DNA of 64,000 nt from an uncultured Fluviicola sp. Lineage in GTDB: Bacteria; Bacteroidota; Bacteroidia; Flavobacteriales_D; Crocinitomicaceae. Positions 15,684-43,244 of the stretch are shown here, in pieces. Within the stretch, counting starts at the first letter, position 1, and each line of letters begins with the position of its first letter. Below the pieces are notes generated by a model. It was not told where the DNA came from and did no database searches. It saw nothing but the letters and a program-made list of their open reading frames with translations. The translations under genes and the position numbers were made by a program. The stretch covers positions 62,001 through 126,000 of the forward strand of contig NZ_CABHOL010000034.1 of NCBI RefSeq assembly GCF_902168135.1, read 5' to 3'.

Positions 15684-18600
15684 ATGAGCTTTGTTTATTC
15701 CGCCTTCCACTTTTCAAGCTTCCGACTGTTCAAAGCATACACCAAACAGTTGCTTTTCAGCGCTTCACTGGTTTTCAGCAGCACAGTATGCGCACAGGTA
15801 ACTGTTGGATTTCAAGGCGGTGAACCGGGAGATCCCTGGGGATACACTTCCACGGGAGCAAGTGCGCTGTCCATATCCGAAGCAACGCAATCACCGAACA
15901 AGGTAACCGGAACTACTTCGCTCGTAGTGGGAGGAAACACGGGCGGAGGAAACTGCTTTGCCACCGGATCAGGAAACGGACCGAATACCGCACGTACTTT
16001 TACCTTTAATTCCCTGGACATTTCTACCAGCAACTCCTCCGTGCGCACTTTGACCTTCAACTGGGGAAACCGTTTTCCATCCTGTAACGGTACCGGCTGG
16101 GATTCGGGAGAGAACCTAACATTCAGAGCCTACCACGACGGTGTTCCGCAAACTTTAATTACACTGGCAACCGGAAACAACAACGCACAATTCAGCATCT
16201 CAACACACAGTTACAGCTGGACGATCCCCGCTTGTGTTTCCGAATTCTACTTCGTGGTAAGCGTTACCACCAATCGCGCAGATGAATTGTTGTTCATCGA
16301 CAATGTTCTTTTGACAGCACCCCAGTTAAACGGACCTCTAACCGTAAGTCCGATCTCGGGAAATACAACCGTTTGCCAGGGAAGTACCGAAAACTACAGC
16401 GTTACGCCTGAAACCGGAGTTTCTTACACCTGGGACGGATTACCTGCCGGGGCCTCTTTCACCACTCCTAACGGAACAACAGCATCCGCCAATATGACCA
16501 TCAACTGGGGAACTGCAGCACCAGGCACATACACTCTTTCAGTGACACCAAGCTCCACCGGCTGCGGAGGCGGAACGGGAAGCCCTCAAACCATTGTAAT
16601 TACCATCACGGCACCTTCCGTTCCGGTTACGATTTCAGGACCTGCTTCTATGTGTCCCGGAGAAACCATCACGCTTACTTCCAGTTATGCATCCGGGAAC
16701 ACCTGGTCTCCAAACGGAGAAACGACCCCATCCATTTCGGTCACAGCACCGGGAACCTACACTGTTTCAACAGCTACTTCCTGCGGAACTATTTCTGCCA
16801 CTCACACCGTAACACTTAATCCGGTTCCTGCTGTTCAATCCGTAACTCCGACCCCAATCAGCTGTTTTGGTGCTAACGACGGGGTGCTTACCATTTCCTC
16901 TACAGATTCCGGATTGGAATACTCACTGGACGGAACCAACTGGCAAGCTTCAAACGTTTTCAGTAACCTTACTCCCGGAACATATACCGTTCAGGTGCGT
17001 TTCGTAAACGGATGTTCCACAACCTTAGCTCCCGTAACGTTCACCGAACCCGCACAGGTTACAGCAACCGCGTCCAATACCGGGCCTTACTGCGAAGGCG
17101 GGAACGTTGTTTTGAACGGATCAACTCCTTTTAGCGGAACAACCACTTATTCCTGGACAGGTCCAAACGGTTTCACTTCTTCCCTGCAAAATCCAACATT
17201 TACCGCTCAAACCGGAACACATACTTACCAATTAACCGTTGCGGTAAACGGATGTCAGAGCACACCGGCAACCACTACCGTTAGTGTCAATGCGGTACCG
17301 ACCGTCAGTGTTTCCAATACCGGACCTTACTGCACCGGTTCGCCGATCAGCTTAAACAGCAACACCAATTCAACAGGAACAATTACTTATTCCTGGACCG
17401 GGCCCAACGGCTACACATCTACCGCTGTAAATCCTTCGGATGCCCTTGAAGCCGGAATGTACGAACTGGTAATCAGCTCCAACGGATGTCAAAGTACTTC
17501 TGCAAATACAACAGTCGTAATTAACCCAATACCGACAGCACAAGCAGATTATACCGCACCTTTCTGTACCGGAACAATGCTTCAGCTAAACGGATCAACG
17601 ACCTCATCGGGCGCCGTAACTTATTCCTGGAGCGGACCCAACGGGTACACATCCACGCTTCAAAACCCGGCAGACGGAACAGAAGCGGGAACTTACACAT
17701 TGCTTGTTACCGAGAACGGATGCACAAGCCCGCCCGCAACTGTAAACGTGATTTCACAAGTGCCATTTGTGTCTGCATCCAATGCCGGACCATATTGTGA
17801 AGGCACAGTGATCCAGCTTACCGGATTTACAACCGCTTCCGGAACTATCAGTTATTTGTGGAACGGACCGAACGGGTACACTTCCCAGGTGCAAAATCCG
17901 GCGGATATCACCGAAGCAGGAACCTATACCCTGACCGTTCAGGAGGGCAATTGCAGCAACAGTGCTTCCACGCAGGTTGTTGTGAAACCCAATCCTTCCG
18001 CTTCTTTTGTTTCTTCGGCACCCTGTATGAACGACAGCATGGTGTTTACATCCGCATGCTCCGTGCCTTCACCGGAGATTATTACCAACTGGCACTGGGA
18101 TTTCAACGACGGGTTCACTTCTTCGGAAGAACACCCGAAACATGTTTTCCAAACCACAGGCACGCATTCCGTATTGCTAAAAGTGACAACCAACTCCAAT
18201 TGCATTACTACTGTTTCCAAGGATGTGGAAGTGAAACCGGGTATTGACGCCAATTTTTACTTTTCCCCATCAACGATTTCTGCACTGGATCCCACCGTAC
18301 ATTTTGTAAATTCCAGTACCAACGCAGTAACTTACACCTGGAATTTCGGGGTTGACTCCGCCCAATCCACAGAAACATCTCCGAATTTTACTTTCCCGGC
18401 ACAACCGGGTTCTTATGCGGTGGAATTAATTGCCACCAATGACGACGGATGTATCGACAGCATTACGAAAGTGATTACTGTTCAGGATGAAATGACTTAT
18501 TACATTCCCAATGCATTTACACCGGACGGCGACGAGTTCAACCAAACATTCAAACCCATTTTTTCCAGCGGATTTGATCCCCAGAACTACACCCTGCTCC

Positions 18601-19056: not shown

Positions 19057-22000
19057 ATGAAAAAACAATTCATTTCAACAATCCGCATCTGTATGCTCTT
19101 CCTGGCACTTGGAGGCTGGCAGAACGGATTTTCACAAGTGAGTATTACCGCTCACAACACCGATTTCAACACCAACTTCAACGGCTGGAACGGAACACTT
19201 CCCGGCGGATTTACAAGATCGGGCGGGAATTACCAGAGTACAAGCGCCTCTACTACCGGCGGTGTTTATGCCATCTCCGGAGCAGGTTTCGGATATCAGC
19301 CAAGTTCTTCCGTTGCAAGCTGTTCCCTTACAGGGACCTTCCAAAACACCACCGGGTCAACAATTACTTCGTTAGAAATCAGTTACGATGCTTTCCAGAT
19401 TGTAAACCGCGTTTCAAGACTTCCAAACTGGACAGTAACTTCTTCACTGGGAAGTGTTTCGGGACTAAACTGGACTTTTGACAATACCACCAGTCCGGGG
19501 AATCCTGATCACCTCACTATTACGATCAATGGGCTTAACCTGGCCAACAATGCCACTTTCACACTTACATTTGCATCAAACCGCGGTTCGGGCTCAGGTT
19601 CTTCTCCATTGATCGGGTTGAACAATGTTAAAGTAAGATCCATAGCTACTATTTGTACCGATCCGACCAACCTTGCGGAAAACAACGTAACAGCAACAAG
19701 TGCCGATTTTAACTGGGACGCTGCCGGTTCAAACGACTTTGAATATGTATTGGATCAACTTGCAACAGATCCTGCCGGTGCGGGAACTCCTATCAATGGA
19801 TTAACAACCAGTACTGCTGCTTTATCACCTTCAACCACTTACTATTTCCACCTCCGCCGGAATTGTGGAAACGGAAGTTTCTCAAACTGGGTCTACGTCA
19901 ACTTCACTACTCCGGCAGCACCATGCAACGCGCCAACGGGATTGGCTGCCGCAAACACCACCCACAACTCCTCAGACCTAAGCTGGGATACACAGGGAAG
20001 CAACAGCTTTGAATATGTAGTAGACCAAGTAGCTGCAGATCCAACCGGGGCAGGAACTCCCACAGCAGGAACTACCTTCAACGCAACCGGATTGAATCCT
20101 TCTACGACTTATTACCTGCATGTGCGTACCGACTGCGGAAGCGGAAATTTCTCTCCGTGGACTGCCGTTCCATTTACCACCCTGATCGAACCATGCGACG
20201 CACCAACCGGATTGGCTGCTGCAAACGTGACACACAACTCCGCAGATTTAAGCTGGGATACGCAAGGCGCAAGCACTTACGAATACGTAGTGGACCAAAT
20301 CTCCACAGATCCGGCTTCCGGAACATCGACAACAGGAACTACTTTTAACCCAACGGGATTGAATCCGTTAACGACCTATTACTTACACGTACGCACCAAC
20401 TGCGTTCAGGGAAATACTTCCGCATGGACCACTATTTCTTTTACAACCCTAATCGAACCATGCAACGCTCCAAACGGATTGACTGCTGCAAACGTGACAC
20501 ACAACTCAGCTGATTTAAGCTGGGATACGCAAGGTGCTAGCACTTACGAATACGTAGTGGACCAAATCTCCACAGACCCGGCTTCCGGAACTTCAACAAC
20601 AGGAACTACTTTTAACCCAACGGGATTGAATCCGTTAACGACCTATTACTTACACGTCCGCACCAACTGCGTTCAGGGAAATACTTCCGCGTGGACAACC
20701 ATTTCTTTCACAACAGCAATCGAACCATGCAACGCTCCAACCGGATTGGCTGCAGCAAACGTGACACACAACTCCGCAGATTTAAGCTGGGATACACAAA
20801 ACGTGAGTACCTATGAATATGTAGTTGACCAGGTTTCCACAGATCCGGCTTCCGGAACTTTAACGGCAGGAACAACTTACCATGCAGCCGGATTGAATCA
20901 ATTGACCACTTATTACCTGCACGTTCGCACGAATTGTGTTCAGGGGAATACTTCTGCATGGACAACCATTTCTTTTACCACCACACTTACGCCCTGCATG
21001 GCACCAACCGGATTGGCTGCTGCAAACGTTACCCACAACTCCGCAAATCTATCCTGGAATGCGCAGGGAAGCAACACTTTTGAATACGTACTGGACCAAA
21101 CTGCCAGCGATCCGCTGATCCTGGGAATGCCCACTACTTTGACCACTTACAATCCAACAACGCTGAGTGCGTCTACGACCTATTACCTGCACGTTCGCAC
21201 CGATTGCAGCGGAGCAAATTTCTCTCCGTGGACAACCATTTCGTTCACCACTTCCATTGCGCCATGTGATGCACCGACCGGGTTAACCGCAGCAAACATC
21301 ACTCAAAATACGGCAGAACTTAGCTGGAACACCCAACCGGGAAGCACCTACGAATACGTGGTAGATCAAATTTCCACAGATCCGGCTTCCGGAACAGCTA
21401 CCACAGATACTTTCTACAACGCATCCGGATTGGACGCTGCAACGACTTACTACGTGCACGTACGCACCCATTGTGCACAGGGAAACACATCCGGATGGAC
21501 CACCATTCCGTTTACCACTTTGCCGGAACCATGCGATGCGCCAACGTGGTTAACGATTGCAAACACCACCCAAAACACTTCCGATCTTTCGTGGAACGTT
21601 CAGGGAGGAAACAGCTTTGAATACGTACTGAACCAAACGGCATCCAACCCGGCTTCCGGAACACCTGCAACAGCCAACAGTTACAGCGCCACAGGACTGA
21701 ATGCTTCTACGACTTACTACTTCCACGTGCGCACCAACTGCGGCAACGGAAACTTCTCCGACTGGACAACCGTTTCTTTCACAACCGATGACGCACCGTG
21801 TATTGCTCCGGCCGGACTGACCGTGTCCAACATTACAAGCAGCTCTGCAAACCTGAACTGGACCGCACAAGCCGGGAACACCTTCCAGTACGTTCTCGAC
21901 CAAACATCTACAAACCCGAATGCAGGTGGAACCGTGACTTCCAACAACACATTCGCGGCAGCTACTTTAAACAGTTCCAGCACCTACTACTTCCATGTAC

Positions 22001-22311
22001 GCACAGACTGTGGCAACGGGAATTTCTCCGACTGGAGCACCGTTTCCTTCACCACCGCATCTACCGTGGGATTGAACGAACAAGAAATCATCAGCCTCTC
22101 GGTATACCCGAATCCGGCTCATGATCTTGTAACTATTGCAGGACAAACCGAAGGAACTGCAACCCTGATCACCGTAAAAGGACAGGTATTGACAACCATC
22201 GACCTTGAAAAACAAAACAAACTGGACCTTTCCGGGTACGAAAGCGGGGTTTATTTCATCAAATACGTTTCTGAAAAAGGAACCGCAAATGTGACCGTGA
22301 TTAAAGAGTAA
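19057..22311 (+). CDS. FN3-like repeat surface protein with type A T9SS sorting domain
   Basis: About 1084 residues from the ATG at 19057; a longer frame begins with TTG at 18982 but precedes the signal peptide. After the signal (ending GFSQ) comes a roughly 190-residue N-terminal region, then nine FN3-like units of about 89 residues, each with C(D/N)APTGL at the start, a DLSWDTQ core and TTYYLHVRT(D/N)C near the end. The last 70 residues carry the type A sorting signal (SVYPNPAHDLVTI, GVYFIKYVSEKG). Three central units are 267 bases apart and two of them are nearly identical in DNA, a sign of recent duplication. Probable surface adhesin. Confidence 0.9.
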   Translation: MKKQFISTIRICMLFLALGGWQNGFSQVSITAHNTDFNTNFNGWNGTLPGGFTRSGGNYQSTSASTTGGVYAISGAGFGYQPSSSVASCSLTGTFQNTTGSTITSLEISYDAFQIVNRVSRLPNWTVTSSLGSVSGLNWTFDNTTSPGNPDHLTITINGLNLANNATFTLTFASNRGSGSGSSPLIGLNNVKVRSIATICTDPTNLAENNVTATSADFNWDAAGSNDFEYVLDQLATDPAGAGTPINGLTTSTAALSPSTTYYFHLRRNCGNGSFSNWVYVNFTTPAAPCNAPTGLAAANTTHNSSDLSWDTQGSNSFEYVVDQVAADPTGAGTPTAGTTFNATGLNPSTTYYLHVRTDCGSGNFSPWTAVPFTTLIEPCDAPTGLAAANVTHNSADLSWDTQGASTYEYVVDQISTDPASGTSTTGTTFNPTGLNPLTTYYLHVRTNCVQGNTSAWTTISFTTLIEPCNAPNGLTAANVTHNSADLSWDTQGASTYEYVVDQISTDPASGTSTTGTTFNPTGLNPLTTYYLHVRTNCVQGNTSAWTTISFTTAIEPCNAPTGLAAANVTHNSADLSWDTQNVSTYEYVVDQVSTDPASGTLTAGTTYHAAGLNQLTTYYLHVRTNCVQGNTSAWTTISFTTTLTPCMAPTGLAAANVTHNSANLSWNAQGSNTFEYVLDQTASDPLILGMPTTLTTYNPTTLSASTTYYLHVRTDCSGANFSPWTTISFTTSIAPCDAPTGLTAANITQNTAELSWNTQPGSTYEYVVDQISTDPASGTATTDTFYNASGLDAATTYYVHVRTHCAQGNTSGWTTIPFTTLPEPCDAPTWLTIANTTQNTSDLSWNVQGGNSFEYVLNQTASNPASGTPATANSYSATGLNASTTYYFHVRTNCGNGNFSDWTTVSFTTDDAPCIAPAGLTVSNITSSSANLNWTAQAGNTFQYVLDQTSTNPNAGGTVTSNNTFAAATLNSSSTYYFHVRTDCGNGNFSDWSTVSFTTASTVGLNEQEIISLSVYPNPAHDLVTIAGQTEGTATLITVKGQVLTTIDLEKQNKLDLSGYESGVYFIKYVSEKGTANVTVIKE
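20191..20991 (+). repeat. Three tandem 267-base coding repeats
   Basis: Units start at 20191, 20458 and 20725 with CCATGC(A/G)ACGC and each is 267 bases (89 codons). The first two are almost identical over their whole length, the third is close. Repeats in adhesins can change number by recombination and replication slippage. Confidence 0.85.
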
Positions 22312-22338
22312 GGAGCTTCTGCTCGCTAAAATATCTAT

Positions 22339-22372
22339 GGGCGGGCCGTCAGTCGACGGACTCGCCCTTTTT
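22339..22372 (+). terminator. Terminator of the FN3-like surface gene
   Basis: GGGCGGGCCGTC pairs imperfectly with GACGGACTCGCCC, followed by a T-rich stretch. It lies directly before element A. Confidence 0.7.
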
Positions 22373-22376
22373 CTTT

Positions 22377-22576
22377 ACCACAGATCCCGACGAAATCATT
22401 GTCGGGACAAATTGCACAGATAATTGGAGGCGCCTACCGGTCGCCTCTTTTTATGTTAATTTGATTTGAAGGGGGCGAAATGATGACACGTTCCGAAACC
22501 AGCACAAACATAAAATAGTTAAACAAAAATCAGCGCGACTGGTAAGCGCGCTTAACATCTGTGCATCTGTGGTAAA
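22377..22576. repeat. Inverted-repeat element A, with a palindrome inserted in its left arm
   Basis: Left arm: ACCACAGAT (22377-22385), a 28-base insert with a CCCGAC/GTCGGG palindrome (22386-22413), then GCACAGATAATTGG and GGCGCCTACCGGTCGCC. Right arm (from 22532): GCGCGACTGGTAAGCGCGC followed by AACATCTGTGCATCTGTGG, the complement of the left arm. The interior is about 85 bases and non-coding. In other copies ACCACAGAT and GCACAGATA are adjacent, so the palindrome arrived later. The 295 bases between genes at 22312 and 22606 hold only this element and a terminator. Confidence 0.8.
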
Positions 22577-22660
22577 CAAGTAGACATCTAGAAGTATTAT
22601 CCCGCGGTGAACGCACCAAGCGGATTTTCTGCGTACCTTAGCCGAAATTTTACAAACAAT

Positions 22661-23002
22661 ATGGAGCAGGCCGAATTCTTAGAAAAAAACGTATTTACCG
22701 ATTTGAAAAACCTGAACGACGGGTTCGACAAAAAGGAAAACCTCCATTTCAACGAGTGGGATTTCGCCATTGTACTGGACCGCGCGGAATACTACGGGCT
22801 TTCCATCTACGAGATCCAGGCGTGGCACGAAGGCGTGCTGTATGACACAGCCCACCACGAACCGGTCCGCAAGAAAGCCACCGATGCTGCCTGGTACAAA
22901 AAAGCATTGATGACCTTTTCAACCCGCCAGCCGGGAATGACATTTACAGCAAGCCTTAAAGTTTCCCCGAAGCTGTTGGCGAGGCAGATGAAGGGGGAAT
23001 AA
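22661..23002 (+). CDS. Uncharacterised small protein
   Basis: About 113 residues from the ATG at 22661 (MEQAEFLEK). Acidic N-terminus, then a mixed alpha/beta core with NEWDFAIVLDRAEYYG and AWHEGVLYD. No signal peptide or membrane segment. I do not recognise it. It sits between repeat elements A and B as the only gene of its module, and has base composition like the host. A longer start at 22607 (18 more residues) is possible but less likely. Confidence 0.55.
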   Translation: MEQAEFLEKNVFTDLKNLNDGFDKKENLHFNEWDFAIVLDRAEYYGLSIYEIQAWHEGVLYDTAHHEPVRKKATDAAWYKKALMTFSTRQPGMTFTASLKVSPKLLARQMKGE

Positions 23003-23035
23003 TCACCGTCCACCACAAAACAACCGCATTGTACA

Positions 23036-23265
23036 GCACTACAGGGCGCGAGTCGTCTTCGACAGCTGCACCTTTTCTCTTTCCACAGATGCACAGATAA
23101 ATGGAGGCGCCTACCGGTCGCCTCTTCTTTTTTGGTGTGATAGTTATCTTTAATAGTAGAGAGCCAATCGAATACTTATACAGATGTTTAGGAAACAAGC
23201 ATTCTGCAAATAGCAGGAAAATAAGGCGACCGGTAGGCGCCGCAGGACATCTGTGCATCTGTGGG
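23036..23265. repeat. Inverted-repeat element B
   Basis: Left arm includes CCACAGATGCACAGATAAATGG and GGCGCCTACCGGTCGCC (from 23083), after a short hairpin-like segment GTCGTCTTCGAC at 23052-23063. Right arm (23222-23265): GGCGACCGGTAGGCGCC then ACATCTGTGCATCTGTGG. The interior of about 90 bases shares a tail (AAGCAT...AGCA...AAATAAGGCGACC) with element D, in the same orientation. No coding capacity. The gap between 23003 and 23390 holds this element and nothing else I can support. Confidence 0.8.
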
Positions 23266-23390
23266 AAATATTAGCAGGCATCAACTTTCGGAAAACCACA
23301 TTTCCCCCATGTGGTAAATACTGAAAATCAATCCAAACGGATCAACTAACAGTTCTTTTCTTAGATTCGTAGCGAAACCTTTTTGTTACA

Positions 23391-24401
23391 ATGAAATTGA
23401 TCACTCTTGCGCTGCTGCTATTCGGTTCCTGTTTGGCCCATTCCCAGGAAGCCATAGACCTCATCGAATCCACATTAAAACTCGGCATTTCGGAAGAAAA
23501 AGAATTCTATTTCGGCTTTGCGGAAGGGGATCAGATTGTGTTGAATTTTGAGGTCATCAAGGGAAAATCCATCGGAGAAGTGGAAGTGACAGAATATCCC
23601 AGCTTCACCAAATTCACCGATTACGAGACCAGTGGAATAACCAATAAAAAACTTCCCGTTTCCAAGGATGGAATTTATAAATTCCGCATCAAAAACAAAG
23701 GCTTATCCGGAAAGATTTGCAAGATCCACATTCAGCGCATTCCGTTGAATGAATACACCAAAAACTTTAATTCGGAAGTTTATTGGAGAACTTTGTATGA
23801 TACCACATACTACTCTAAAAATGAGAACTATTTGATCAGAAGAGATACTACCATTGTGAATGTAATGGATCAAACAGCTAAAGTGCATTCCTTTGGGAAC
23901 GCGAATGGAAATAAAACGACTCTTAACTTCACGCTGCCTAAAAACACAAAAGCCTGGAGTTACTACATTGGGGTGAATCAGGAAGGGCAGCAAGCTTACC
24001 AGGATGCAGTGAATGATCTAAGCGAATTAGCTTCACCCATTGTAAAAGTTCTATCCAAAGGAAATCCGCTTGCAAGCCTGGCTCTTGGATTACCAAACTA
24101 CTTAGTTGTAGCTCAAAGAGGTGAAGATATCGATTACTACATCGTAACCAATGAAAATGTAAATCTATTTAGTTCCGGTCAACGATTCTATTACCTGAAA
24201 ATGGGAAAAGTAATTAATGCTTTCAACAGAATGGAACAGGTATCAAATGACAACTTCCATGTTTGTTTATCGAATGACAATGCAGTAACCGGGGTAATGG
24301 TTTTGGTGAAAGTGACTGCCATTGTTGTAAATGAACAATGGGGAAATAGATCGGTTCAAGTGCCGAGGGTGGGTGAGCGCAGGGAGGCTTATTTGAAATA
24401 G
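23391..24401 (+). CDS. Uncharacterised secreted protein
   Basis: 336 residues with a signal peptide (LITLALLLFGSCLAHSQ). The mature part starts with an extended beta-rich domain (EFYFGFAEGDQIVLNFEV, DGIYKFRIKNKGLSGKICKIHIQRIP) and continues with a mixed region containing NFTLPKNTKAWSYYIGV and VVNEQWGNRSVQV. No known domain was recognised. It is the first gene of the module between elements B and C. Base composition is intermediate between the host-like genes and the AT-rich pair downstream. Confidence 0.7.
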   Translation: MKLITLALLLFGSCLAHSQEAIDLIESTLKLGISEEKEFYFGFAEGDQIVLNFEVIKGKSIGEVEVTEYPSFTKFTDYETSGITNKKLPVSKDGIYKFRIKNKGLSGKICKIHIQRIPLNEYTKNFNSEVYWRTLYDTTYYSKNENYLIRRDTTIVNVMDQTAKVHSFGNANGNKTTLNFTLPKNTKAWSYYIGVNQEGQQAYQDAVNDLSELASPIVKVLSKGNPLASLALGLPNYLVVAQRGEDIDYYIVTNENVNLFSSGQRFYYLKMGKVINAFNRMEQVSNDNFHVCLSNDNAVTGVMVLVKVTAIVVNEQWGNRSVQVPRVGERREAYLK

Positions 24402-24516
24402 AAATAGATTAATTGCTAAAAGATTAGAATTTGAAAAGAAATGATAACGGTACAATTTAAATAATTAGCTAAGTATTTATATTAACATAACTACCGGCAA
24501 TATTAATAACAAGAAA

Positions 24517-25224
24517 ATGACAGCAGAGGAATATATTAAAAAAATAAACGAGCAGATTCAGGGTATTTTTGATTCTTCTTTGGATCAAAACAAAGATGTA
24601 ATTAATAATGGAATTGATTTTTCCAAATCGCTTCAAACATGGTTAGAAATAATACCTGAAGACAATTATAAAATTCTTCTAACAAACAGTATTCAATCTT
24701 TGGAACTTTCAATAATTTCTCAAACTTATTGTTTATATAGAAATGCTTTTAGTTCTTTAAGACTTTCTATGGAAATGTTATTTGGAGGTGTGTTTTTTAG
24801 CACTGCAACACTTGACTTTATTGAGTGGACAAAATCATCAAGAGACTTAAATTGGAGTACAATTAACGATCTAAACAATGGAGTGCTTTCACATCGTTTT
24901 TGCAACGCTTTTTTTTTAGAACTTAAAGATAAAAACGAGGAATACTATACAAAAGCAAAAGAATTGTATAGAGATTTATCAGAATATGTGCATGGTAACC
25001 ATCACACATGGATTACGGAAAGTGAAGCCTTGAAAATTGAAGAAAAAGAAATCATCTTATTCAATAAATCATTAAAATCATTTTTCGAAATTGCAAATTT
25101 TGTACTTTGTTTAAGATATTTGAAAACCCTAAAACAAAGTCAATTAGAACAGGTCGAACCAATCGTTATGCAAACATTAAATCATGTTGAACCAATTCTT
25201 CAGCATCTAACTTCATCTAAATAA
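24517..25224 (+). CDS. Uncharacterised all-alpha protein, upstream partner of an ORC/CDC6-like ATPase
   Basis: 235 residues, predicted almost entirely helical, clearly AT-rich compared with its flanks. A LYRDLSEYVHGNHHTW segment (about residues 150-165) is the most distinctive part; similar Y-x-x-L-S-x-(Y/F)-V-H-G motifs are found in several uncharacterised helical proteins, some near defence genes, but I cannot assign a family. It ends two bases before the start of the ATPase gene, so the pair is translationally coupled. No signal peptide or clear membrane segment. Function unknown; association with the ATPase is the main clue. Confidence 0.7.
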   Translation: MTAEEYIKKINEQIQGIFDSSLDQNKDVINNGIDFSKSLQTWLEIIPEDNYKILLTNSIQSLELSIISQTYCLYRNAFSSLRLSMEMLFGGVFFSTATLDFIEWTKSSRDLNWSTINDLNNGVLSHRFCNAFFLELKDKNEEYYTKAKELYRDLSEYVHGNHHTWITESEALKIEEKEIILFNKSLKSFFEIANFVLCLRYLKTLKQSQLEQVEPIVMQTLNHVEPILQHLTSSK

Positions 25225-25226
25225 AA

Positions 25227-26837
25227 ATGGCAGAGATATATTATAGAACTGAAAATATTCGTCCAGACGAGTTACCCAATATAATTGTAAAATCACAATT
25301 AGAAAATGAAATAATTGAATCGCTAAAATCAAACGCCAATTTAATACTCGAAGGCAGTAGAGGAACAGGTAAATCATTCTTAATGAAATATGCCTGTTAT
25401 CAATTAGAGCAAAACTTTGAGACAGAAAAAATACTACCGGTATACATTACGTTTATGGCTAGTACTTTAATCCACACTACTGATACATTTCAATTTAGAA
25501 ATTGGATGATAGCTCGTTCTTTACGTGAGCTAATAAAAAGTAGTCTCAAAAGAGGTTTGGTGTTCTCTAATTATGCATCAACGTTATTGAACACAGAAAC
25601 CAATTCTGAAACCAGTTCGCTTGATAATATAATAAAAGCATATGAAGATTCATATAAGAATCCAGGCACAGTGATAGATGCGACATCACTTCCTGAACTA
25701 AATGATATAATTGACGCATTAAATGACATATGTGAACAAAATCAAATCAAGGGTATATACTTTTTCTTTGATGAAGCGGCTCATATTTTCCGACCAGAAC
25801 AACAAAGACAATTTTTTACTCTATTTCGTGACTTTCGCTCACCATATGTTTCATCTAAAGCAGCTGTTTATCCTGGTGTAACTCATTTTGGCGATACCTT
25901 TGAAGGAATTCACGATTCAGTCTTTAAAAAATTAGATAGGAATATTCTAGACCCCGGATACTTAAGCTTCATGACAGAAATGGTTGAAAAGCAAGTTGAC
26001 CAAGGGAAATTGACAATGATAAACCAAAATAAAGAACTCTACAATACCGCTATCTTTTGTTCAAATGGTAACCCGAGAATTTTATTAAAAACGACTCAAG
26101 GGCTTCAAAGAATTAGTAGTTCTGAAATAGACACATTAATTCGTAATTTTTATCGTAATGAAATTTGGGCTGAACATACTTTACTAGGCGATAAATTTAA
26201 AGGACACAAAGTACTTATTGATTGGGGCAGGAAATTTCTAGAAGATACTGTAATACCAAGCTTAATAAAGAAAAATTTCAATGAAGACGGAACGATTAGG
26301 ACTGAAACAAGCATATATTTTTGGATTCACAAAGATTCCCCTATACAAATTCGTGAGGCTCTTAGACTTTTAACTTATACAGGTATAATTAGGAAAATTG
26401 ATGACGGTGTAAAGGGTACTAGATCATTAATTGGAACTCGTTATGAGGTAAACTATGGTGTATTTTTATCGCAAGTAAACAATCCCACAAGGAACTCAAG
26501 AGAATTAATTGCAAAACTTCAAATTAATAATTTTTCAGAGTACGGACAAAATCATGCTATTTATAGTGACCTAATCGACAAAAATATCATTCTAGAAAAT
26601 GATGAGATGCTGGTTGCATCAATAAATAACATTTTGGATAAATCCATTTCTAATCTCGACTTGTCTGACTGGCAAAAAAACAAATTAATTAATGATGCAG
26701 GCCTTTTAACCATAAATGACCTTATCAATACAAGTGAACAAGATTTAATCAACAAACTAGAACAAGTTGGAGTGAAAAGATCAAGACAAATGAAAAATGC
26801 TGCCTATGCAGAACTACTAGAATATATCTCAGGATAA
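25227..26837 (+). CDS. ORC/CDC6-like AAA ATPase with C-terminal helix-hairpin-helix-like region
   Basis: 536 residues. Walker A is GSRGTGKS (residues 43-50); Walker B is IYFFFDEAAHIF near residue 180. This is followed by a helical sensor/lid region with GNPRILLKTTQGLQRI and a winged-helix-like part. The C-terminus (about residues 485-530), with LLTINDLINTSEQDLINKLEQ, looks like a helix-hairpin-helix or SAM-like domain, which often binds DNA or protein. The combination resembles the ORC-CDC6-family ATPases of mobile and defence islands. AT-rich codon use differs from the flanking genes, a sign of transfer. It probably acts with the preceding helical protein; the reaction is unknown. Confidence 0.78.
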   Translation: MAEIYYRTENIRPDELPNIIVKSQLENEIIESLKSNANLILEGSRGTGKSFLMKYACYQLEQNFETEKILPVYITFMASTLIHTTDTFQFRNWMIARSLRELIKSSLKRGLVFSNYASTLLNTETNSETSSLDNIIKAYEDSYKNPGTVIDATSLPELNDIIDALNDICEQNQIKGIYFFFDEAAHIFRPEQQRQFFTLFRDFRSPYVSSKAAVYPGVTHFGDTFEGIHDSVFKKLDRNILDPGYLSFMTEMVEKQVDQGKLTMINQNKELYNTAIFCSNGNPRILLKTTQGLQRISSSEIDTLIRNFYRNEIWAEHTLLGDKFKGHKVLIDWGRKFLEDTVIPSLIKKNFNEDGTIRTETSIYFWIHKDSPIQIREALRLLTYTGIIRKIDDGVKGTRSLIGTRYEVNYGVFLSQVNNPTRNSRELIAKLQINNFSEYGQNHAIYSDLIDKNIILENDEMLVASINNILDKSISNLDLSDWQKNKLINDAGLLTINDLINTSEQDLINKLEQVGVKRSRQMKNAAYAELLEYISG

Positions 26838-26894
26838 AATAATCCTCCTCCTAGAAATAGGATTTTGCTTTAAAAGAAAAAAATAATTTAATTA

Positions 26895-27848
26895 ATGCCC
26901 CTCCATTTCTTCTCCCGCCTCCGACGCGATTCCAAATATGGCGGAGCGCCGCACAAGCCGGTGTTACTTCTCGCAATCCTGGAACTCGTGCGTAAAGGAG
27001 AAATCAGCAATAACCGCATTGCAATTACCCCGGAGCTGGTACTCGAATTCAAATCCATTTGGAGCAGGCTGGTGGTTACGCCACACATCCCGAACTTTGC
27101 TTTGCCGTTTTATCACATGAAGTCGGAGCCGTTTTGGAAACTGGTTACTTATGGCGGCATGGAAATCCCCGTTACCTCTTCCAACAGCATCCGCAGTTTG
27201 AATGCATTGAAGGAAACCGTGGCTTTTGCAGAATTAGACGCACAGGTATTCGCCCTCATGCAGGACCCGATTCAGCTGGCGGTTATGGAAGAAGCCCTAT
27301 TGGACCAATATTTCCCGGAAACCAAAAGCCGGTTCCATGTTCACGAGGCCGATCTGTTTACCCAACTGGAAGCAGAGATCCTGCGGGAAGACGCGGTTTT
27401 ATACCGCAAACGGATCGATGAATTGAAAGAAACGCTTTCGAAGGAAGAATTTGAAGAAGAAGTCTTTGTTCGCGGTGGCGTGTTCAAGCGTGAAGTGCCA
27501 AAAATCTACGGCTACCAATGCGCCATTTCGGAAATGCGGATCGAATCTTCTACCAACGCGCAAATGGTGGATGCCTGTCATCTCATTCCGTTCGCTATTT
27601 CAAAAGACGATACGATCACCAACGGCATTGCTCTTTCTCCCAATCTGCACCGGGCTTACGACCGCGGACTGATCACCATTACGGAAGATTACCGGGTGAA
27701 AATATCGAAAGCCATCTCGGAAAACCATTCGCCCTATTCCCTGGGACAATTTGACGGAAAAGAAATTTTATTGCCGCGCAACCCCGATTACTATCCCGCC
27801 ATTGAAAACCTGCGCTGGCACCACCGCGAGTGTTTTGTGGCTTCCTAA
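26895..27848 (+). CDS. HNH endonuclease, probable modification-dependent (type IV) restriction enzyme
   Basis: 317 residues. The N-terminal half begins with RRDSKYGGAPHKPVLLLAIL, a signature shared by McrA-type proteins with a DNA-modification-binding N-terminal domain (the sulfur-binding type comes to mind). The C-terminal half has an HNH nuclease: MVDACHLIPFAISKDDTITNGIALSPNLHRAYDRG (about residues 223-260) with the His of the first strand and Asn/His of the beta-beta-alpha metal fold. Its base composition is host-like, unlike the AT-rich pair upstream. It likely cleaves modified foreign DNA, but the recognised modification cannot be read from the sequence. The stop overlaps a small convergent gene by four bases. 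Confidence 0.82.
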   Translation: MPLHFFSRLRRDSKYGGAPHKPVLLLAILELVRKGEISNNRIAITPELVLEFKSIWSRLVVTPHIPNFALPFYHMKSEPFWKLVTYGGMEIPVTSSNSIRSLNALKETVAFAELDAQVFALMQDPIQLAVMEEALLDQYFPETKSRFHVHEADLFTQLEAEILREDAVLYRKRIDELKETLSKEEFEEEVFVRGGVFKREVPKIYGYQCAISEMRIESSTNAQMVDACHLIPFAISKDDTITNGIALSPNLHRAYDRGLITITEDYRVKISKAISENHSPYSLGQFDGKEILLPRNPDYYPAIENLRWHHRECFVAS

Positions 27849-28117
27849 ACCCTCTCCCCCAGCCTCCCATAAACCTCCTCCGCAAGTTTGCTTAAGGCTT
27901 CTGGTGTCCGGTATTTCTCCAAATCATCTGCCTGCTCGAGCAAAAGTTGATAAAACTCCTGGTTCTGCTCGGTGTTGCTGATTCCCATCAGCGAGAAGAT
28001 CACCGTTACATTTCCCAAATAATAGCTGCCGGCTGAAATATCCAGGTTTTCCAATACTCCGATCAGGCGGGAAATTTTGATGTCGTCTTGTATCAAGCTG
28101 AGGATGTTTGTTTTCAT
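27845..28117 (-). CDS. Uncharacterised small protein convergent with the HNH endonuclease
   Basis: About 90 residues from the ATG at 28117 (MKTNILSLIQDD); a longer frame to 28156 is possible. Helical with a segment SRLIGVLENLDISAGSYYLG and an acidic C-terminus. Its end overlaps the end of the HNH gene by four bases on the opposite strand. Not recognised. Its antisense position could let it influence expression of the nuclease, but nothing in the sequence proves that. Confidence 0.5.
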   Translation of the reverse strand: MKTNILSLIQDDIKISRLIGVLENLDISAGSYYLGNVTVIFSLMGISNTEQNQEFYQLLLEQADDLEKYRTPEALSKLAEEVYGRLGERV

Positions 28118-28156
28118 AAGAAGGAATTGCTTCATGCAATGATAGGAAAGCAGCAA

Positions 28157-28406
28157 TATTTAATCTGTATTCAACTGAATACAACACCTAACAATTTTCA
28201 ATACTCCGATTTTCCCCTTCTTTTATAAAGTATATTGATCAACCTTCCATCTTTAATAGATATACACAACTATCAACGCTTAGCGCTTGGTATATATGTA
28301 GATAACAAGGCGACCGGTAGGCGCCGTTAAACATCTGTGCATCTGTGGCAAAGAAAAGCACCGCAGGTGCAGGTGCCCGGCGCACTTACAACACTCCCGC
28401 AACCCC
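28157..28406. repeat. Right arm of an inverted-repeat element (C), no left arm found
   Basis: 28308-28350 matches the right arms of elements B and D: GGCGACCGGTAGGCGCC then AACATCTGTGCATCTGTGG, followed by GCACCGCAGGTGC. I found no left arm in the 150 bases before it, so this is a solo or truncated copy. The remaining part of this gap, up to 28406, is otherwise unremarkable apart from AT-rich stretches. Confidence 0.7.
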
Positions 28407-28672
28407 AATCAAAAGCCCGTACCTGTCAATCAAAGGCATGTGAACTTGAATCAAAAGCGTGTGCACGGGAAGCAAAGGCGCAGAACTGTCTCGCAAAACA
28501 AGCGGCAGCTCGAGCAAAGGAGTGTGAAGCTCAAACAAAGACGCGGAAACTTCGATCAAAAGCGCGTGAAGGTGAAGCAAAGGCATGTGATCGTTTAGCG
28601 AAAGCGTGTGAACGGAGCGCAAAGGCGCGTGAAGGTGAAACAAACGCGCAGGAAGGTCGATCAAAGGCGGCG
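28407..28672. repeat. 21-bp minisatellite, about 13 units in perfect register
   Basis: CAAA cores occur at 28410, 28431, 28452 and so on every 21 bases to 28662, with no insertions or deletions (the unit at 28599 reads CGAAA). Units are otherwise diverged. The plus frame reads as a heptad (S/A)KAxExx and the minus frame as PLLxLHT-like heptads; both are open for over 100 codons. The only plus-strand start is a GTG inside repeat arm C, so I treat it as a repeat and not a gene. Spacing equals two helical turns. Confidence 0.75.
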
Positions 28673-28818
28673 GTTGGATAATCCAAACCCGGCGAAAAAA
28701 AGTGCAGAAGGACATTTCAATCAATGAAACGGCTGATTAACAGCTCTTAACAATTCATTTTCAGCAGTTTGGCACGCATTTTTCAAAGCCTCTTTCATAA
28801 CTTTTAATACGGAAAGTC

Positions 28819-29496
28819 ATGAAAAAAAGCACCTTAAACAAGCGCAGTATGTTCGGGAGTGTACATACCGTGCTGGAAGAAAACCAACCAATCTGGATCA
28901 ACGTGCCGGCTTTTGCAACGGCTGTTGCGCAATTCGAAAACAAACTCACGATCCTGGATACGAAACTAAGCGAACAATCTACGGCAACCACCGGGGTAAC
29001 ACTGGAAAAACAAGCCCTGATCCGGGAGTTGTTCGACGAAATGGTCCTGGCACACCAGGCGCTCTACCTGTTTGGAAAAGACAGTGAAAATACCGCTTTG
29101 CGGGAACGGAATAAGGTTAGCAGATCCAAACTGAACCGCCTCACCATTGGGAAGGCAAAAGTGCATGCAAACGACCTGAAGAACGATTTGCTGGCTCAAG
29201 GCCCGGCACTGGATGCTTACGGAATCACCCCGGCGTTTGTCAGTGCGTTGATCGCAAAAATCGACCAGCTGCCCGACATGATTGAATCTACCCGCATGGC
29301 ATTGCTCCGAAGGAAGGGAATCACGAAGGCCATTAACGAGGTACAGTCGAAAATCACGGAGATCCTCCGCGACCGCATGGACCGGCTCATTAAGATCTTC
29401 CGGAAAGACCACCCGGATTTTGTGCTGATCTACCAGCATGCGCGGACAGTACTGCCGCATTCCTCCAGGGATCGGGACAATGGAACTACCGCATAA
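28819..29496 (+). CDS. Uncharacterised protein, repeated-helix type
   Basis: 225 residues, predicted mainly helical, without signal peptide. Distinctive segments are SVHTVLEENQPIWINVPAF, QSTATTGVTLEKQALIREL, RSKLNRLTIGKAKVHANDLK and TEILRDRMDRLIKIFRKDH. I do not recognise a catalytic motif, and it may belong to a family of small Bacteroidota proteins with no assigned role. It follows the 21-bp minisatellite and is followed closely by element D, so it forms a single-gene module. Base composition is host-like. Confidence 0.65.
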   Translation: MKKSTLNKRSMFGSVHTVLEENQPIWINVPAFATAVAQFENKLTILDTKLSEQSTATTGVTLEKQALIRELFDEMVLAHQALYLFGKDSENTALRERNKVSRSKLNRLTIGKAKVHANDLKNDLLAQGPALDAYGITPAFVSALIAKIDQLPDMIESTRMALLRRKGITKAINEVQSKITEILRDRMDRLIKIFRKDHPDFVLIYQHARTVLPHSSRDRDNGTTA

Positions 29497-29509
29497 CACA
29501 GTGTTACAG

Positions 29510-29757
29510 GGTGCGTGCCGTCTTCGACAGCCACACCTTTCCTTTTTACCACAGATGCACAGATAAATGGGAGGCGCCTACCGGTCGCCTCTTCTTTTTT
29601 GTGCCATGCTCACTTTCATAATATAAGAACGACTCAACTACCAATAAGAACATCTGGGTAATAAGCATCCTCCTAGCAGCATAAAATAAGGCGACCGGTA
29701 GGCGCCGTTGAACATCTGTGCATCTGCGGTAAAAGAAAAAGCACCGCAGGTGCCCGA
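29510..29757. repeat. Inverted-repeat element D
   Basis: Left arm from 29548: ACCACAGATGCACAGATAAATGGG, then GGCGCCTACCGGTCGCC. Right arm 29686-29730: AGGCGACCGGTAGGCGCCG then AACATCTGTGCATCTGCGGT, then AGAAAAAGCACCGCAGGTGC. It is the most complete copy, with arms of about 60 bases including the outer GC hairpins. The interior is about 85 bases and non-coding. The 474-base gap at 29497-29970 holds this element and, near 29790-29900, an unremarkable AT-rich stretch that I cannot assign. Confidence 0.85.
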
Positions 29758-29970
29758 AGTTTATGTAATCAATCTTTGGGTTCATGACACCAATTTCCCG
29801 TCTCGTGACAAAAAGCAATCCGCAGCACCAAAAATTAGTTACATTCGCTTTACACAATTCACTAAAAACTTTTCTGAAGGATGCGGCCGGTCCTGACGAA
29901 AAAATGATCGGATGGTGGGGCGGTTTCCGAAAAGCCTAAGAGTAGGAACGACACATTAAAACTATTCACT

Positions 29971-30375
29971 ATGTCAGCAGGTATTGCAAATTCGTCCGGA
30001 ACTCTTACAGTGGGTAACGGCGCACAATTCTGGGTGTATTTATCCCCACAAAACGACACTTCTAAAATGATCACAAAATGGCAGGTTACGTTCTCCCAGG
30101 GAAACTGGACCGGAATGATTTCCAGCGAAAACCCTACACAACAACTTCAAACTCCGAACCTTTCCGGTATTTTTGATATCAAGGTAGAAATGTGGAGCGG
30201 ATCTACCAATTCATGGCGCCAGATTCCACCACAACAAGGAAGTACGAACGAAATTGGCTGCAACAGCAATTGCGCATCCATGGTAGGAATTGTGGCAGAC
30301 AGCACCAACCCGCCGTTAGGAGCAATCAACGCGCATTTCTGGACAACCTGGGATGCATTCTGCTCAAGAGGTTAA
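29971..30375 (+). CDS. Uncharacterised small beta-rich protein
   Basis: 134 residues with no classical signal peptide. It is rich in Ser, Thr and Asn with NSSGTLTVGNGAQFWVYLS, ITKWQVTFSQGNWTG and WSGSTNSWRQIPP, consistent with a beta-sandwich or lectin-like fold. Two Cys pairs (EIGCNSNCA and the C-terminal FCSRG) may form disulfides. I do not recognise the family. It is the single gene of the module between elements D and E. Confidence 0.65.
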   Translation: MSAGIANSSGTLTVGNGAQFWVYLSPQNDTSKMITKWQVTFSQGNWTGMISSENPTQQLQTPNLSGIFDIKVEMWSGSTNSWRQIPPQQGSTNEIGCNSNCASMVGIVADSTNPPLGAINAHFWTTWDAFCSRG

Positions 30376-30412
30376 TCCGTTTATCATAGATTTCACAGGA
30401 AATAAAATAATC

Positions 30413-30444
30413 AGGGGTCCGCAGTTGCGGCCCCTTTCTTTTTT
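30413..30444 (+). terminator. Terminator of the small beta-rich gene
   Basis: AGGGGTCCGCA pairs with GCGGCCCCT around GTT, followed by a T-rich run ending at 30444 and directly abutting the left arm of element E. Confidence 0.8.
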
Positions 30445-31022
30445 ACCACAGATGCACAGATAAACGGAGGCGCCTACCGGTCGCCTCTTTTTCTTTGATT
30501 AAGACATAATTGATAGTTGGATAAACGATCTTTTTTCTTAAATTAAAGAGAATGGAAAACTATTTATTGGAAAAAGAGACCTATGAAATCATCGGTCGTT
30601 GTATGGAAGTTCATAACAAATTAGGATCAGGATTCTCTGAAATTGTTTACAAAGATGCTTTAGAGTACGAGTTTAGAAAGCATGGAATTTTATTTGAACG
30701 CGAGGTTAAATACCGGGTAAAATATAAAAACATTATTCTACCACACCAATTCTTTGCAGACTTTGTAGTCTTTGGTTCAATTATCTTAGAAGTGAAGACT
30801 GTATCTGATCTGATAGACCAACATTTCGAACAAACAATCAATTATTTGGCTGTATCCGGCAATGAAGTTGGTTTACTGGTAAATTTCCGGAAACCCAAGC
30901 TGCAATATAAAAGGATCATCCTTACAGAAGTATAATAATACTATTCTGAATAGAACATTAGCGCGACTGCCTGTCCCGACATATTCGGGGGTAAGCGTGC
31001 TTAACATCTGTGCATCTGTGGG
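30445..31022. repeat. Inverted-repeat element E, enclosing the GxxExxY gene
   Basis: Left arm (30445-30492): ACCACAGATGCACAGATAAACGG, GGCGCCTACCGGTCGCC, as in elements A, B and D. Right arm (30961-31022): GCGCGACT and GGTAAGCGTGC around a 21-base insert (30969-30989) with CCCGA/TCGGG, then AACATCTGTGCATCTGTGG. The arms lie 60 bases before the GxxExxY start and 25 bases after its stop, so the gene nearly fills the element. A solo right arm follows at 31091-31132 (GCGCGACCGGTAGGCGCGC). Confidence 0.8.
30552..30935 (+). CDS. GxxExxY-family protein (PD-(D/E)XK nuclease-like)
   Basis: 127 residues, the usual size. Defining motif GFSEIVY (residues 27-33) after EVHNKLGS. This is followed by the nuclease-like core: ADFVVFG (Asp in the strand) and IILEVKTV (E-x-K), typical of the PDDEXK superfamily to which GxxExxY proteins are assigned. 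Members are often present in many copies per genome and have no proven role. Here the gene lies inside element E, with inverted arms on both sides, so it could be the enzyme that moves or trims these repeats, or simply cargo; the sequence cannot decide. AT-rich compared with flanking arms. Confidence 0.85.
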   Translation: MENYLLEKETYEIIGRCMEVHNKLGSGFSEIVYKDALEYEFRKHGILFEREVKYRVKYKNIILPHQFFADFVVFGSIILEVKTVSDLIDQHFEQTINYLAVSGNEVGLLVNFRKPKLQYKRIILTEV

Positions 31023-31090
31023 AAAAGAAAAGCTGTGGCAAAAGGACAAAGCACCGCGGGTGCCGATAAAGGAATATTAATAACAAAATC

Positions 31091-31132
31091 AGCGCGACCG
31101 GTAGGCGCGCATAATATCTGTGCATCTGTGGG
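31091..31132. repeat. Solo right arm of the inverted-repeat family (F)
   Basis: GCGCGACCGGTAGGCGCGC followed by TATCTGTGCATCTGTGG. It is the same type as the right arm of element E 130 bases to the left, with the stem changed from GGCG/CGCC to GCGCG/CGCGC, a paired change that preserves the stem. No left arm is found next to it. Confidence 0.75.
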
Positions 31133-31151
31133 AAAAGAAGAAAAGCTATGG

Positions 31152-31190
31152 CAAAAAGGAAAGGGTGTCCCGGCAAAGCCGTGGACACCC
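31152..31190 (-). terminator. Terminator of glyA
   Basis: GGGTGTCC (31163-31170) pairs with GGACACCC (31183-31190) around CGGCAAAGCCGT; on the minus strand a T-rich tract follows. It is correctly placed after the glyA stop at 31213. Confidence 0.85.
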
Positions 31191-31212
31191 TCCCATTTAA
31201 TATCTATGAAGA

Positions 31213-32487
31213 TCACCATGTAAACAACGGGCGTGCGCTCATCAAAGCATTCACCTCCGAACGTACGGATTTGATCGTTTCTTCGTCACCGATGTTCATC
31301 AACACGCGGTCAATCAGTTTCACGATTGCAGGGATCTCTGTTTCTTTAATTCCGCGGGATGTAATTGCAGAAGTTCCTACGCGGATTCCGGAAGTAACGA
31401 ACGGCGATTCCGTATCAAACGGTACCATGTTCTTGTTTACCGTAATATCTGCCAATACCAGGTTGTTCTCAGCATCTTTACCCGTTACTCCTTTGGAGCG
31501 TAAATCGATCAGCATGCTGTGATTGTCCGTTCCGCCGGAAATAATCTTGTAGCCCAGTTTCGTGAATTCTTCCGCCATCAAAGCAGCGTTCTTCTTCACC
31601 TGGCCCATGTATGTTTTGTAGTTGTCAGACAATGCCTCACCGAATGCCACTGCTTTCGCTGCGATCACGTGCTCCAGCGGTCCGCCCTGGATTCCCGGGA
31701 ATACGGCTGCATCCAGCAATGCTCCCATGGATTTTGGATTTCCGTTGTTCCACTTCAGTCCGAATGGATTGTCGAAGTTATGACGCATCATGATCACCCC
31801 TCCGCGTGGTCCGCGCAATGTTTTGTGTGTTGTTGTTGTAACGATGTGGCAATGGTCCAGCGGATCGTTCAGCAAACCTGCTGCGATCAAACCTGCCGGG
31901 TGTGAAATATCTGCCAGGATCAAAGCACCTACTTCGTCAGCAATTTTGCGGATGCGTGCGTAATCCCAATCTCTGGAATAAGCGGATGCACCACAAATGA
32001 TCATTTTCGGTTTTTCGCGCTTGGCAACTTCTTCCATCATGTCGTAATCTACCAAACCTGTTTCCTGGCTCACACCGTAGAAATGCGGTTCGTATAATTT
32101 CCCGGAGAAGTTCACCGAAGAACCGTGTGTTAAGTGTCCACCGTGAGACAAATCAAAACCAAGGATCTTATCTCCCGGTTTCAAACAAGCCAGGAAAACA
32201 GCTGCATTTGCCTGTGCACCGGAATGCGGCTGCACGTTTGCCCAGGTTGCCCCGAATAATTTGCACAAACGGTCGATAGCCAACTGTTCTACTTTGTCCA
32301 CTACTTCACAACCACCGTAGTAACGCTTCCCGGGAAGTCCTTCTGCATATTTATTAGTCAATACGGAACCCATTGCTTCCATCACCTCATCGGAGACAAA
32401 GTTCTCAGAGGCAATTAATTCGATTCCATGTTCCTGACGCTGTCTTTCTGCAGCAATTAAGTCAAATACTTCCTGATCGCGTTTCAT
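31213..32487 (-). CDS. glyA: Serine hydroxymethyltransferase
   Basis: Interconverts serine and glycine with tetrahydrofolate, the main source of one-carbon units, in the cytoplasm. 424 residues, normal length. Seen: [16 protein letters not shown] near the N-terminus, [13 protein letters not shown], the PLP-lysine motif [15 protein letters not shown] and [21 protein letters not shown]. No missing motif was noticed. A -7 box candidate TATATTTG on the minus strand lies at 32617-32624, upstream of the repeat at 32504-32600, so the repeat would be in the 5' untranslated region. Confidence 0.98.
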
Positions 32488-37619: not shown

Positions 37620-37646
37620 GAGAGGTGAAAATGTTTAAACAGTTTC

Positions 37647-37706
37647 ATTTGAACATTTGAACATTTGAACATTTGAACATTTGAACATTTGAACATTTGA
37701 ACATTT
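37647..37706. repeat. 8-base tandem array ATTTGAAC, seven copies plus a partial
   Basis: Perfect units run from 37647 to 37702 and continue partially to 37706. It lies 27 bases after the surface protein stop. An array of the complement (ATGTTCAA) lies at 43093-43156, in opposite orientation. Arrays of this type may vary in copy number by slippage. Confidence 0.9.
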
Positions 37707-43069: not shown

Positions 43070-43092
43070 GGTAGTTTATTTAACAGTTAAAA

Positions 43093-43156
43093 ATGTTCAA
43101 ATGTTCAAATGTTCAAATGTTCAAATGTTCAAATGTTCAAATGTTCAAATGTTCAA
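43093..43156. repeat. 8-base tandem array ATGTTCAA, eight copies
   Basis: Eight perfect units 43093-43156, in opposite orientation to the ATTTGAAC array at 37647-37706. Together they bracket a 5.4-kb block with genes from 37873 to 43069. More GTTCAA-like words follow to 43240. Confidence 0.9.
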
Positions 43157-43244
43157 ATAAAATTATTATTCCCTTGAACCCAATTGAACTTTTATACTCT
43201 TTTGAACCTTCGGAGCTCGAAGAGCGAAGAAGATTTGAACTTGT

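Follow-up and report, generated by a model that had tools for sequence, protein, structure and literature searches.

Results

A GxxExxY gene between inverted arms shared with gene-less elements

The window analysed here, a 64,000-nucleotide stretch from the genome of an uncultured Fluviicola sp. (G000), contains a GxxExxY gene that lies, as part of an element designated E, between inverted arms that also occur in the gene-less elements A, B and D (Table 1). Sequence matching confirmed this arrangement, which the first-pass annotation had described, and the left arms of E are exact copies, but the right side proved untidier than had been reported, with a split inner arm and a second right end. 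The outer-arm sequence ACCACAGATGCACAGAT has nine matches in the window (at most three mismatches) and the inner-arm sequence GGCGCCTACCGGTCGCC has eight, compared to means of 0.10 and 0.02, respectively, in shuffled sequence. Near-copies of the outer arm CCACAGATGCACAGAT (at most two mismatches) number 17 in the 4.38 Mb genome, nine of them within this window. Moreover, the left 139 bp of element B align with the left end of a GxxExxY-bearing element of the sister species G002.

Table 1. Positions of element E, its arms and the related elements in the window.
Feature	Position	Strand	Match or remark
Left outer arm of E, two CACAGAT units (ACCACAGATGCACAGAT)	30445-30461	+	exact match
Left inner arm of E (GGCGCCTACCGGTCGCC)	30469-30485	+	exact match
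GxxExxY gene, 127 aa, PD-(D/E)XK nuclease-like; E30, D70, E80-x-K82, Q94xxxY98	30552-30935	+	
Right inner arm of E, split by a ~20-nt palindromic insert (about 30970-30989)	30961-31000	-	read by eye; unsplit form in element A
Right outer arm of E	31006-31022	-	1 mismatch
Second right end, without a left partner of its own	31093-31132	-	inner 31093-31109 (2 mismatches), outer 31116-31132 (1 mismatch)
Gene-less element A	22377-22573	-	one outer arm broken by a palindromic insert
Gene-less element B	23082-23265	+	outer and inner arms at both ends; also at the same site in G002
C, solitary right end	28309-28349	-	
Gene-less element D	29548-29730	+	outer and inner arms at each end

Tiny palindromes of ~15-25 nt inside arms (22386-22412 and about 30970-30989; L229, L230, L235, L237) form, as judged by eye, a nested second class of small repeats. 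At the site of D, G002 carries a different inverted repeat, a CTCCCCCTTTGGAGGGGG element, instead (L141, about 17785-17970). A scan of 22000-31500 for Rfam RNAs gave a miRNA model over B as the sole match to an element, and a known Rfam RNA as the identity of the elements was rejected on the basis that this match lies far under the gathering score (32.9 versus 140 bits). A DUF805b cis-regulatory RNA motif at 29917-29948, upstream of the gene at 29971, scored just under its gathering threshold (34.1 versus 35.6 bits). The 26895-27848 protein has an HNH domain like that of phosphorothioated-DNA-binding restriction endonucleases, below the cut-off of that model. Perfect arrays of the octamer CATTTGAA lie 5.4 kb apart, with 7.6 copies at 37646-37706 and 8.5 copies of the reverse complement at 43091-43158, and the octamer is also present in the sister contigs G002:C31 and G002:C269.

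The gene product is a PD-(D/E)XK nuclease-like protein

The 30552-30935 product matched the GxxExxY model TIGR04256 with 135.4 bits (cut-off 35) and PDDEXK_3 (PF13366) with 122.8 bits (cut-off 22, E 1.2e-35), and the gene between the arms had no other Pfam match. Members of the PD-(D/E)XK nuclease superfamily have a fold with conserved E, D and ExK residues, and the membership of GxxExxY proteins, stated in the first-pass annotation, was borne out by both the predicted fold and these residues; all four active-site residues are retained in 170/171 proteins. The predicted fold is nearest to that of Cas4/RecB-like nucleases, and one relative gave a weak match to a Cas4 profile. No solved structure is close by sequence (a single match, E 0.95), and PHROGs has no family for the two proteins queried. 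GxxExxY proteins are patchily distributed, being present in 101/198 genomes of the phylum. L006 and L089, which occupy equivalent sites in a pair of species, are under purifying selection (dS 0.60, dN/dS 0.06), which may equally reflect a host function.

GxxExxY genes are flanked by inverted arms across phyla

To score the arms of a gene, we aligned the 300 bp on its left locally with the reverse-complemented 300 bp on its right and took the best match, using as controls same-size intervals shifted elsewhere within the same loci. A first pass over 33 loci had also included mismatched pairs (median 20, 95% value 29, maximum 580), the high values of which came from closely related loci. Among relatives, 58/71 loci scored above the 95th percentile of the controls (n = 123) and 54/71 above their maximum. 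This set comprised 93 rows, 19 of which were unused (fragments, overlapping pieces, weak matches and L050); L057 was dropped as a duplicate of L026, and 73 loci were kept, 71 of them scored. Similarly, for the 29 new phylum loci scored among the matches listed, 24 exceeded the control 95th percentile and 20 the maximum (n = 115). A collection scan over many phyla returned 587 relatives, and of the best 80, 77 were scored, with 58 above the control 95th percentile and 35 above the maximum (n = 272). The loci at or below the 95% control value thus number 13/71, 5/29 (among those listed) and 19/77 (among the best), respectively. To judge by record titles, 20 of the 77 best collection loci come from groups other than Bacteroidota, Ignavibacteria and Chlorobi, and 15 of them exceed the 95th percentile, including loci from Chloroflexota, Cyanobacteria, Acidobacteriota, Planctomycetota, KSB1, Calditrichaceae, Kiritimatiellae and a Thiotrichaceae bin, and the five that do not are from two Acidobacteriota, one Lentisphaerales bin and two Verrucomicrobia-type bins.

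In G000 itself, arms are seen by eye at all seven GxxExxY genes (one of them broken), built of CACAGAT, CGCAAAT, CACATAG (two loci), CGCAGAG, CGCAAAG and CGCAGAT units; the score threshold detects five of them and misses L001 and L002, whose arms are visible by eye only. Of 57 ORFs of 90-260 aa scored in the window and in three sister contigs, 10 had scores above 23 and six had scores above 26, the latter being three GxxExxY genes and three other genes located between neighbouring elements.

At the level of whole genomes, CACAGAG arrays occurred in 48/100 phylum genomes with a GxxExxY match versus 4/97 without (p 1e-4 when the presence of the gene is shuffled within taxonomic families), in a test that leaves out G000, which has the gene and no CACAGAG array. 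Part of this association is due to the gene's own arms; in G222, none of the 17 CACAGAG-array matches lies near its single GxxExxY gene, as read by eye. The number of genes and the number of arms are correlated (Spearman 0.62, p 0.019, n = 14), with clade membership assigned by eye. GxxExxY genes are thus mostly armed, and the two outcomes that the first-pass annotation had named as counter-evidence, GxxExxY genes generally lacking arms and arms being equally common at unrelated genes, were not encountered within the material searched. The gene-arm association is real and general across phyla.

Arms are arrays of short units that co-vary with the protein lineage

We dissected the arms of 117 loci with a score above 26 and an intact ORF (234 arms). 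At least two C(A/G)CN(A/G)AG units are present in 132/234 arms, with two to four units in CACAGAG-type arms, and the spacing between C(A/G)CN(A/G)AG units is 9-11 bp in 183/249 cases. Four-unit arms show a 10-11-10 pattern in 19/37 and a 10-12-10 pattern in 7/37 instances. With roughly one CACAGAG-type unit per helical turn, a duplex-binding protein is suggested over an RNA hairpin, and from its sequence the array of the CACAGAG lineage looks like a candidate cooperative binding site on duplex DNA. Such one-turn phasing is not universal, because in the lineage of the window most spacings between ..AT units are 8 bp (31/46, in 41 arms).

The first-pass annotation had proposed that arm subfamilies be compared with GxxExxY subfamilies, and the two indeed co-vary: the mean cosine between arms of different loci rises from 0.05 at 30-40% protein identity to 0.39 above 75%, and a Mantel test of arm similarity against protein identity gave a rho of 0.37 that was reached in 0/1000 permutations, a result that would also arise if gene and arms were simply inherited together. 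Within single elements, the free base N of the unit is identical between both arms in 19/20 cases in G011 and in only 10/19, no more than chance, in G009.

Four-helix-bundle genes show a parallel layout

Genes for four-helix-bundle proteins (23S IVP, PF05635) in the same genome set also have inverted arms, with scores above the control 95th percentile at 30/33 loci and above the maximum at 18/33, the set consisting of three own loci and 30 among the matches listed (L054-L056, L145-L174). By eye, their arms are built of ~7 nt units that differ between loci. Since these genes show it too, the tandem-unit arm layout is not unique to GxxExxY, a parallel that weakens a GxxExxY-specific account and strengthens the view of a general style of small element.

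Gene-less elements are numerous and dispersed

The arm word CCACRRATNCACRRAT occurs 0 to 117 times per genome in 14 members of the genus, compared to zero occurrences of the reversed control word. When the first 100 of the 117 matches in G011 are paired over distances of up to 1500 bp, 30 convergent pairs result and no divergent ones, with 40 matches left solitary. The convergent pairs measure 59-142 bp in 29 cases, and the remaining pair, at 535 bp, encloses a GxxExxY gene, such that gene-less copies are far more numerous than gene copies in this genome. Twenty of the 29 gene-less pairs were retrieved and share a common layout: an outer arm, a GC-rich inner motif that is mostly close to CCTAACGG, a variable centre, the inverted inner motif and an outer arm. 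Their contexts are mostly unrelated (a 14-mer is common to 11/1485 pairs of outward flanks). No clear target-site duplication was detected in these 20 elements, the longest direct repeat near the ends averaging 2.9 versus 2.6 in mismatched pairs, and matches of 3-4 bp near the ends showed small excesses only at offsets 5-7 (e.g. 6 versus 2.8).

Some gene-less elements are internal-deletion derivatives. Compared to the L004 gene, L187 (G008) still has the final ~60 bp, enclosed by CACATAG arms, and L128 (G007) has another portion; B retains the end described above. This origin was seen for these three elements, a set separate from the gene-less copies of G011.

Arm words throughout G009 are mostly CACAGAT, the type found at its two resident genes of this lineage, and those of G011 and G004 are mostly CACGAAT, with CACGAAT resident genes; two further residents of G011 are of the CACAGAT type, as is a minority of its words. 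Over seven of the 14 genomes, with resident arms copied by hand, the L061 arm completed from a partial view and the G000 words taken from the genome-wide matches to the outer arm, the match between gene-less and resident arm types is weak (p 0.043). It is contradicted by G003, which has 20 arm words of the CACAGAT/CACAAAT type versus CACGAAT arms at its only GxxExxY gene, and G013 fits it poorly.

Orthologous sites differ in element content and arm type

Site comparisons were read by eye from sequence stretches. The gene next to E (31213-32487), which we take to encode serine hydroxymethyltransferase, is adjoined in G000, G002 and G001 by a GxxExxY gene with CACAGAT-type arms, in reversed orientation in the latter two. 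The same gap contains a CACATAG-type element with a partly deleted gene in G007 and a gene for a Y1 (RAYT-like) transposase in G012 (L129, 922-1446); no arms were found within the kilobase inspected in G008 and G013. ORFs resembling the Y1 gene are also present in G003 and G005. A clean inversion of E between G000 and G002 was rejected, as the gene is reversed at the same site and the opposite half differs.

The L004 site is occupied by a full element in G000, by a deletion derivative in G008, by a short gene-less element in G007 and by a gene-less element with other arms in G002; no element is present there in G012, G001 and G013. Ten sites were queried between G011 and G009, and eight were read. 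In G009, three of the eight lack arms (one with a possible remnant), one is decayed and one has the same type as in G011. The other three hold elements in both species that differ in arm type at both ends, CACGAAT in G011 versus CACAGAT in G009, and whose interiors are not alignable by eye. No base-exact empty site was found among these comparisons; the armless sites in G009 and, at the L004 site, in G012, G001 and G013 also differ by other small insertions.

Discussion

We consider it probable (roughly 0.6) that, within a family of small inverted-repeat elements, E is the one that carries a gene, the sole gene being that of a Cas4/RecB-like PD-(D/E)XK nuclease, and that this nuclease drives the spread of the family. 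By analogy, the element is best read as one that would work like REP/RAYT or MITE systems. MITEs accompany parent DDE transposons and have terminal inverted repeats, gene-less internal-deletion derivatives and dispersed copies. The gene-less elements described here likewise end in inverted repeats, lack coding sequence, are dispersed in many copies and include some internal-deletion derivatives, but the partner gene encodes no DDE transposase, the 20 G011 elements have no clear target-site duplication and the arm type differs at orthologous sites. The anatomy (shared arms and some internal-deletion derivatives) favours the view of the first-pass annotation that E is autonomous and A, B and D are its non-autonomous relatives, whereas a simple pairing of this kind is at odds with the arm mismatch in G003, the lack of clear duplications and the four-helix-bundle genes with the same architecture.

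Integron attC sites carry RYYYAAC/GTTRRRY boxes and reside in cassette arrays with an integrase. The inner motifs of G011 (GCCTAAC/GTTAGGC) resemble these boxes, but the elements are dispersed and the inner arms in the window read CCTACCGG. Cas4/RecB-like nucleases share the predicted fold, the active-site layout and, for one relative, the weak Cas4 profile match, whereas GxxExxY genes are bounded by arms of their own. The enzyme groups of REP/RAYT (TnpA-REP) REPtrons are reported to have co-evolved with their repeats (PMC8266576, PMC3733652), and REPtrons are alike in having a single small enzyme gene between repeats and many short, gene-less palindromic relatives that lie mostly outside genes. 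By contrast, the GxxExxY enzyme is a PD-(D/E)XK Cas4/RecB-like nuclease and not an HUH transposase, its arms are arrays of a 7-8 nt unit, and the gene-less elements measure about 60-200 bp versus 20-40 bp for REPs; because the enzyme between the arms is not of the HUH (Y1) type, the GxxExxY element is not a REPtron. The intervening sequence (IVS) of C. burnetii is called a selfish element inside 23S rRNA in one report (PMC4990558), and 23S IVS/four-helix-bundle (S23) genes also form small single-ORF units bounded by inverted repeats, with tandem-unit arms in the members scored. They differ in their unrelated protein, in their arm units and in location, GxxExxY elements being intergenic.

Phages and plasmids as the main vehicle were rejected on the basis of 0/50,697 phage records and 8/72,556 plasmid records matched (one protein query each) and of no relative in IMG/VR (two query proteins). 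A GxxExxY protein is recorded for an algal virus (PMC12085832). In the open-access literature searched, we found no prior report of the gene-arm association, and six arm strings were likewise absent.

How might such a nuclease spread its arms? From the sequences we infer that the enzyme moves or copies them: the GxxExxY protein would recognise the paired arms, or a cruciform formed by them, and cut there, and repair would then copy the element, with or without its gene, into the cut site or occasionally into a new intergenic site. Cutting and copying of this kind would disperse short gene-less derivatives, keep the paired arms of an element matched and allow the arm type of an existing site to be displaced by another; it would also account for shared sites that differ in arm type and for the absence of any clear target-site duplication.

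It is unlikely, though deserving the most weight among the alternatives, that the arm-bounded elements are spread by another enzyme (a RAYT-type transposase, a reverse transcriptase or host recombination) and that GxxExxY and four-helix-bundle genes are captured cargo. Such capture would fit the analogous arms of four-helix-bundle genes (30/33 loci), the great excess of gene-less over gene copies in G011 (first 100 of 117 matches), the gene-less arms of G003 that are unlike those of its resident gene and the Y1 transposase gene in the gap next to 31213-32487 in G012. Yet arm type tracks the GxxExxY lineage, arm arrays are concentrated in gene-bearing genomes, the active site is kept in nearly all proteins (170/171), and the only long armed interval among the G011 matches listed encloses GxxExxY. 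We regard as somewhat less probable still a host role, in which the arms would be bidirectional terminators, RNA hairpins or an operator of the nuclease gene, GxxExxY a conserved nuclease of the repair or Holliday-junction type, and dispersal incidental; the gene-less copies, which are dispersed by the tens and lie mostly in unrelated contexts, the absence of elements at several orthologous sites and the patchy distribution in the phylum (101/198 genomes) argue against it.

Because the window is rich in arms (9/17 of the genome's copies), the bracketing of E alone could have been chance, the gene having fallen between members of an unrelated local cluster of repeats, and three other ORFs are indeed bracketed in the window and sister contigs. 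Loci in other genomes show arms too, which removes this doubt for E: independent loci from different phyla repeat the pattern with arm sequences of their own, and together with the test of CACAGAG arrays against gene presence this led us to reject chance bracketing, to which we give practically no weight.

Nuclease-driven spread of E and its relatives would place a Cas4-like nuclease among the few enzyme types known to drive small repeat families; the GxxExxY type is not known to drive such mobile or self-spreading elements. A broader and more tentative proposal, to which we give somewhat less than even odds, is that GxxExxY is the sole enzyme of widespread minimal selfish elements in which the DNA specificity of the nuclease co-evolves with the arms, a changed specificity converting existing sites to a new arm type. 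If so, the G009/G011 pair would show such a switch at three of eight sites (CACAGAT versus CACGAAT), and the four-helix-bundle genes would be a parallel class that follows the same logic. Many bacterial genomes are annotated with GxxExxY proteins to which no function is assigned, and their cognate inverted arms turn this into a testable enzyme-substrate problem. The tie between gene and arms also suggests where a class of short intergenic repeats may come from, and the lineage-specific arms form a ready-made panel for working out how a very small nuclease attains its specificity.
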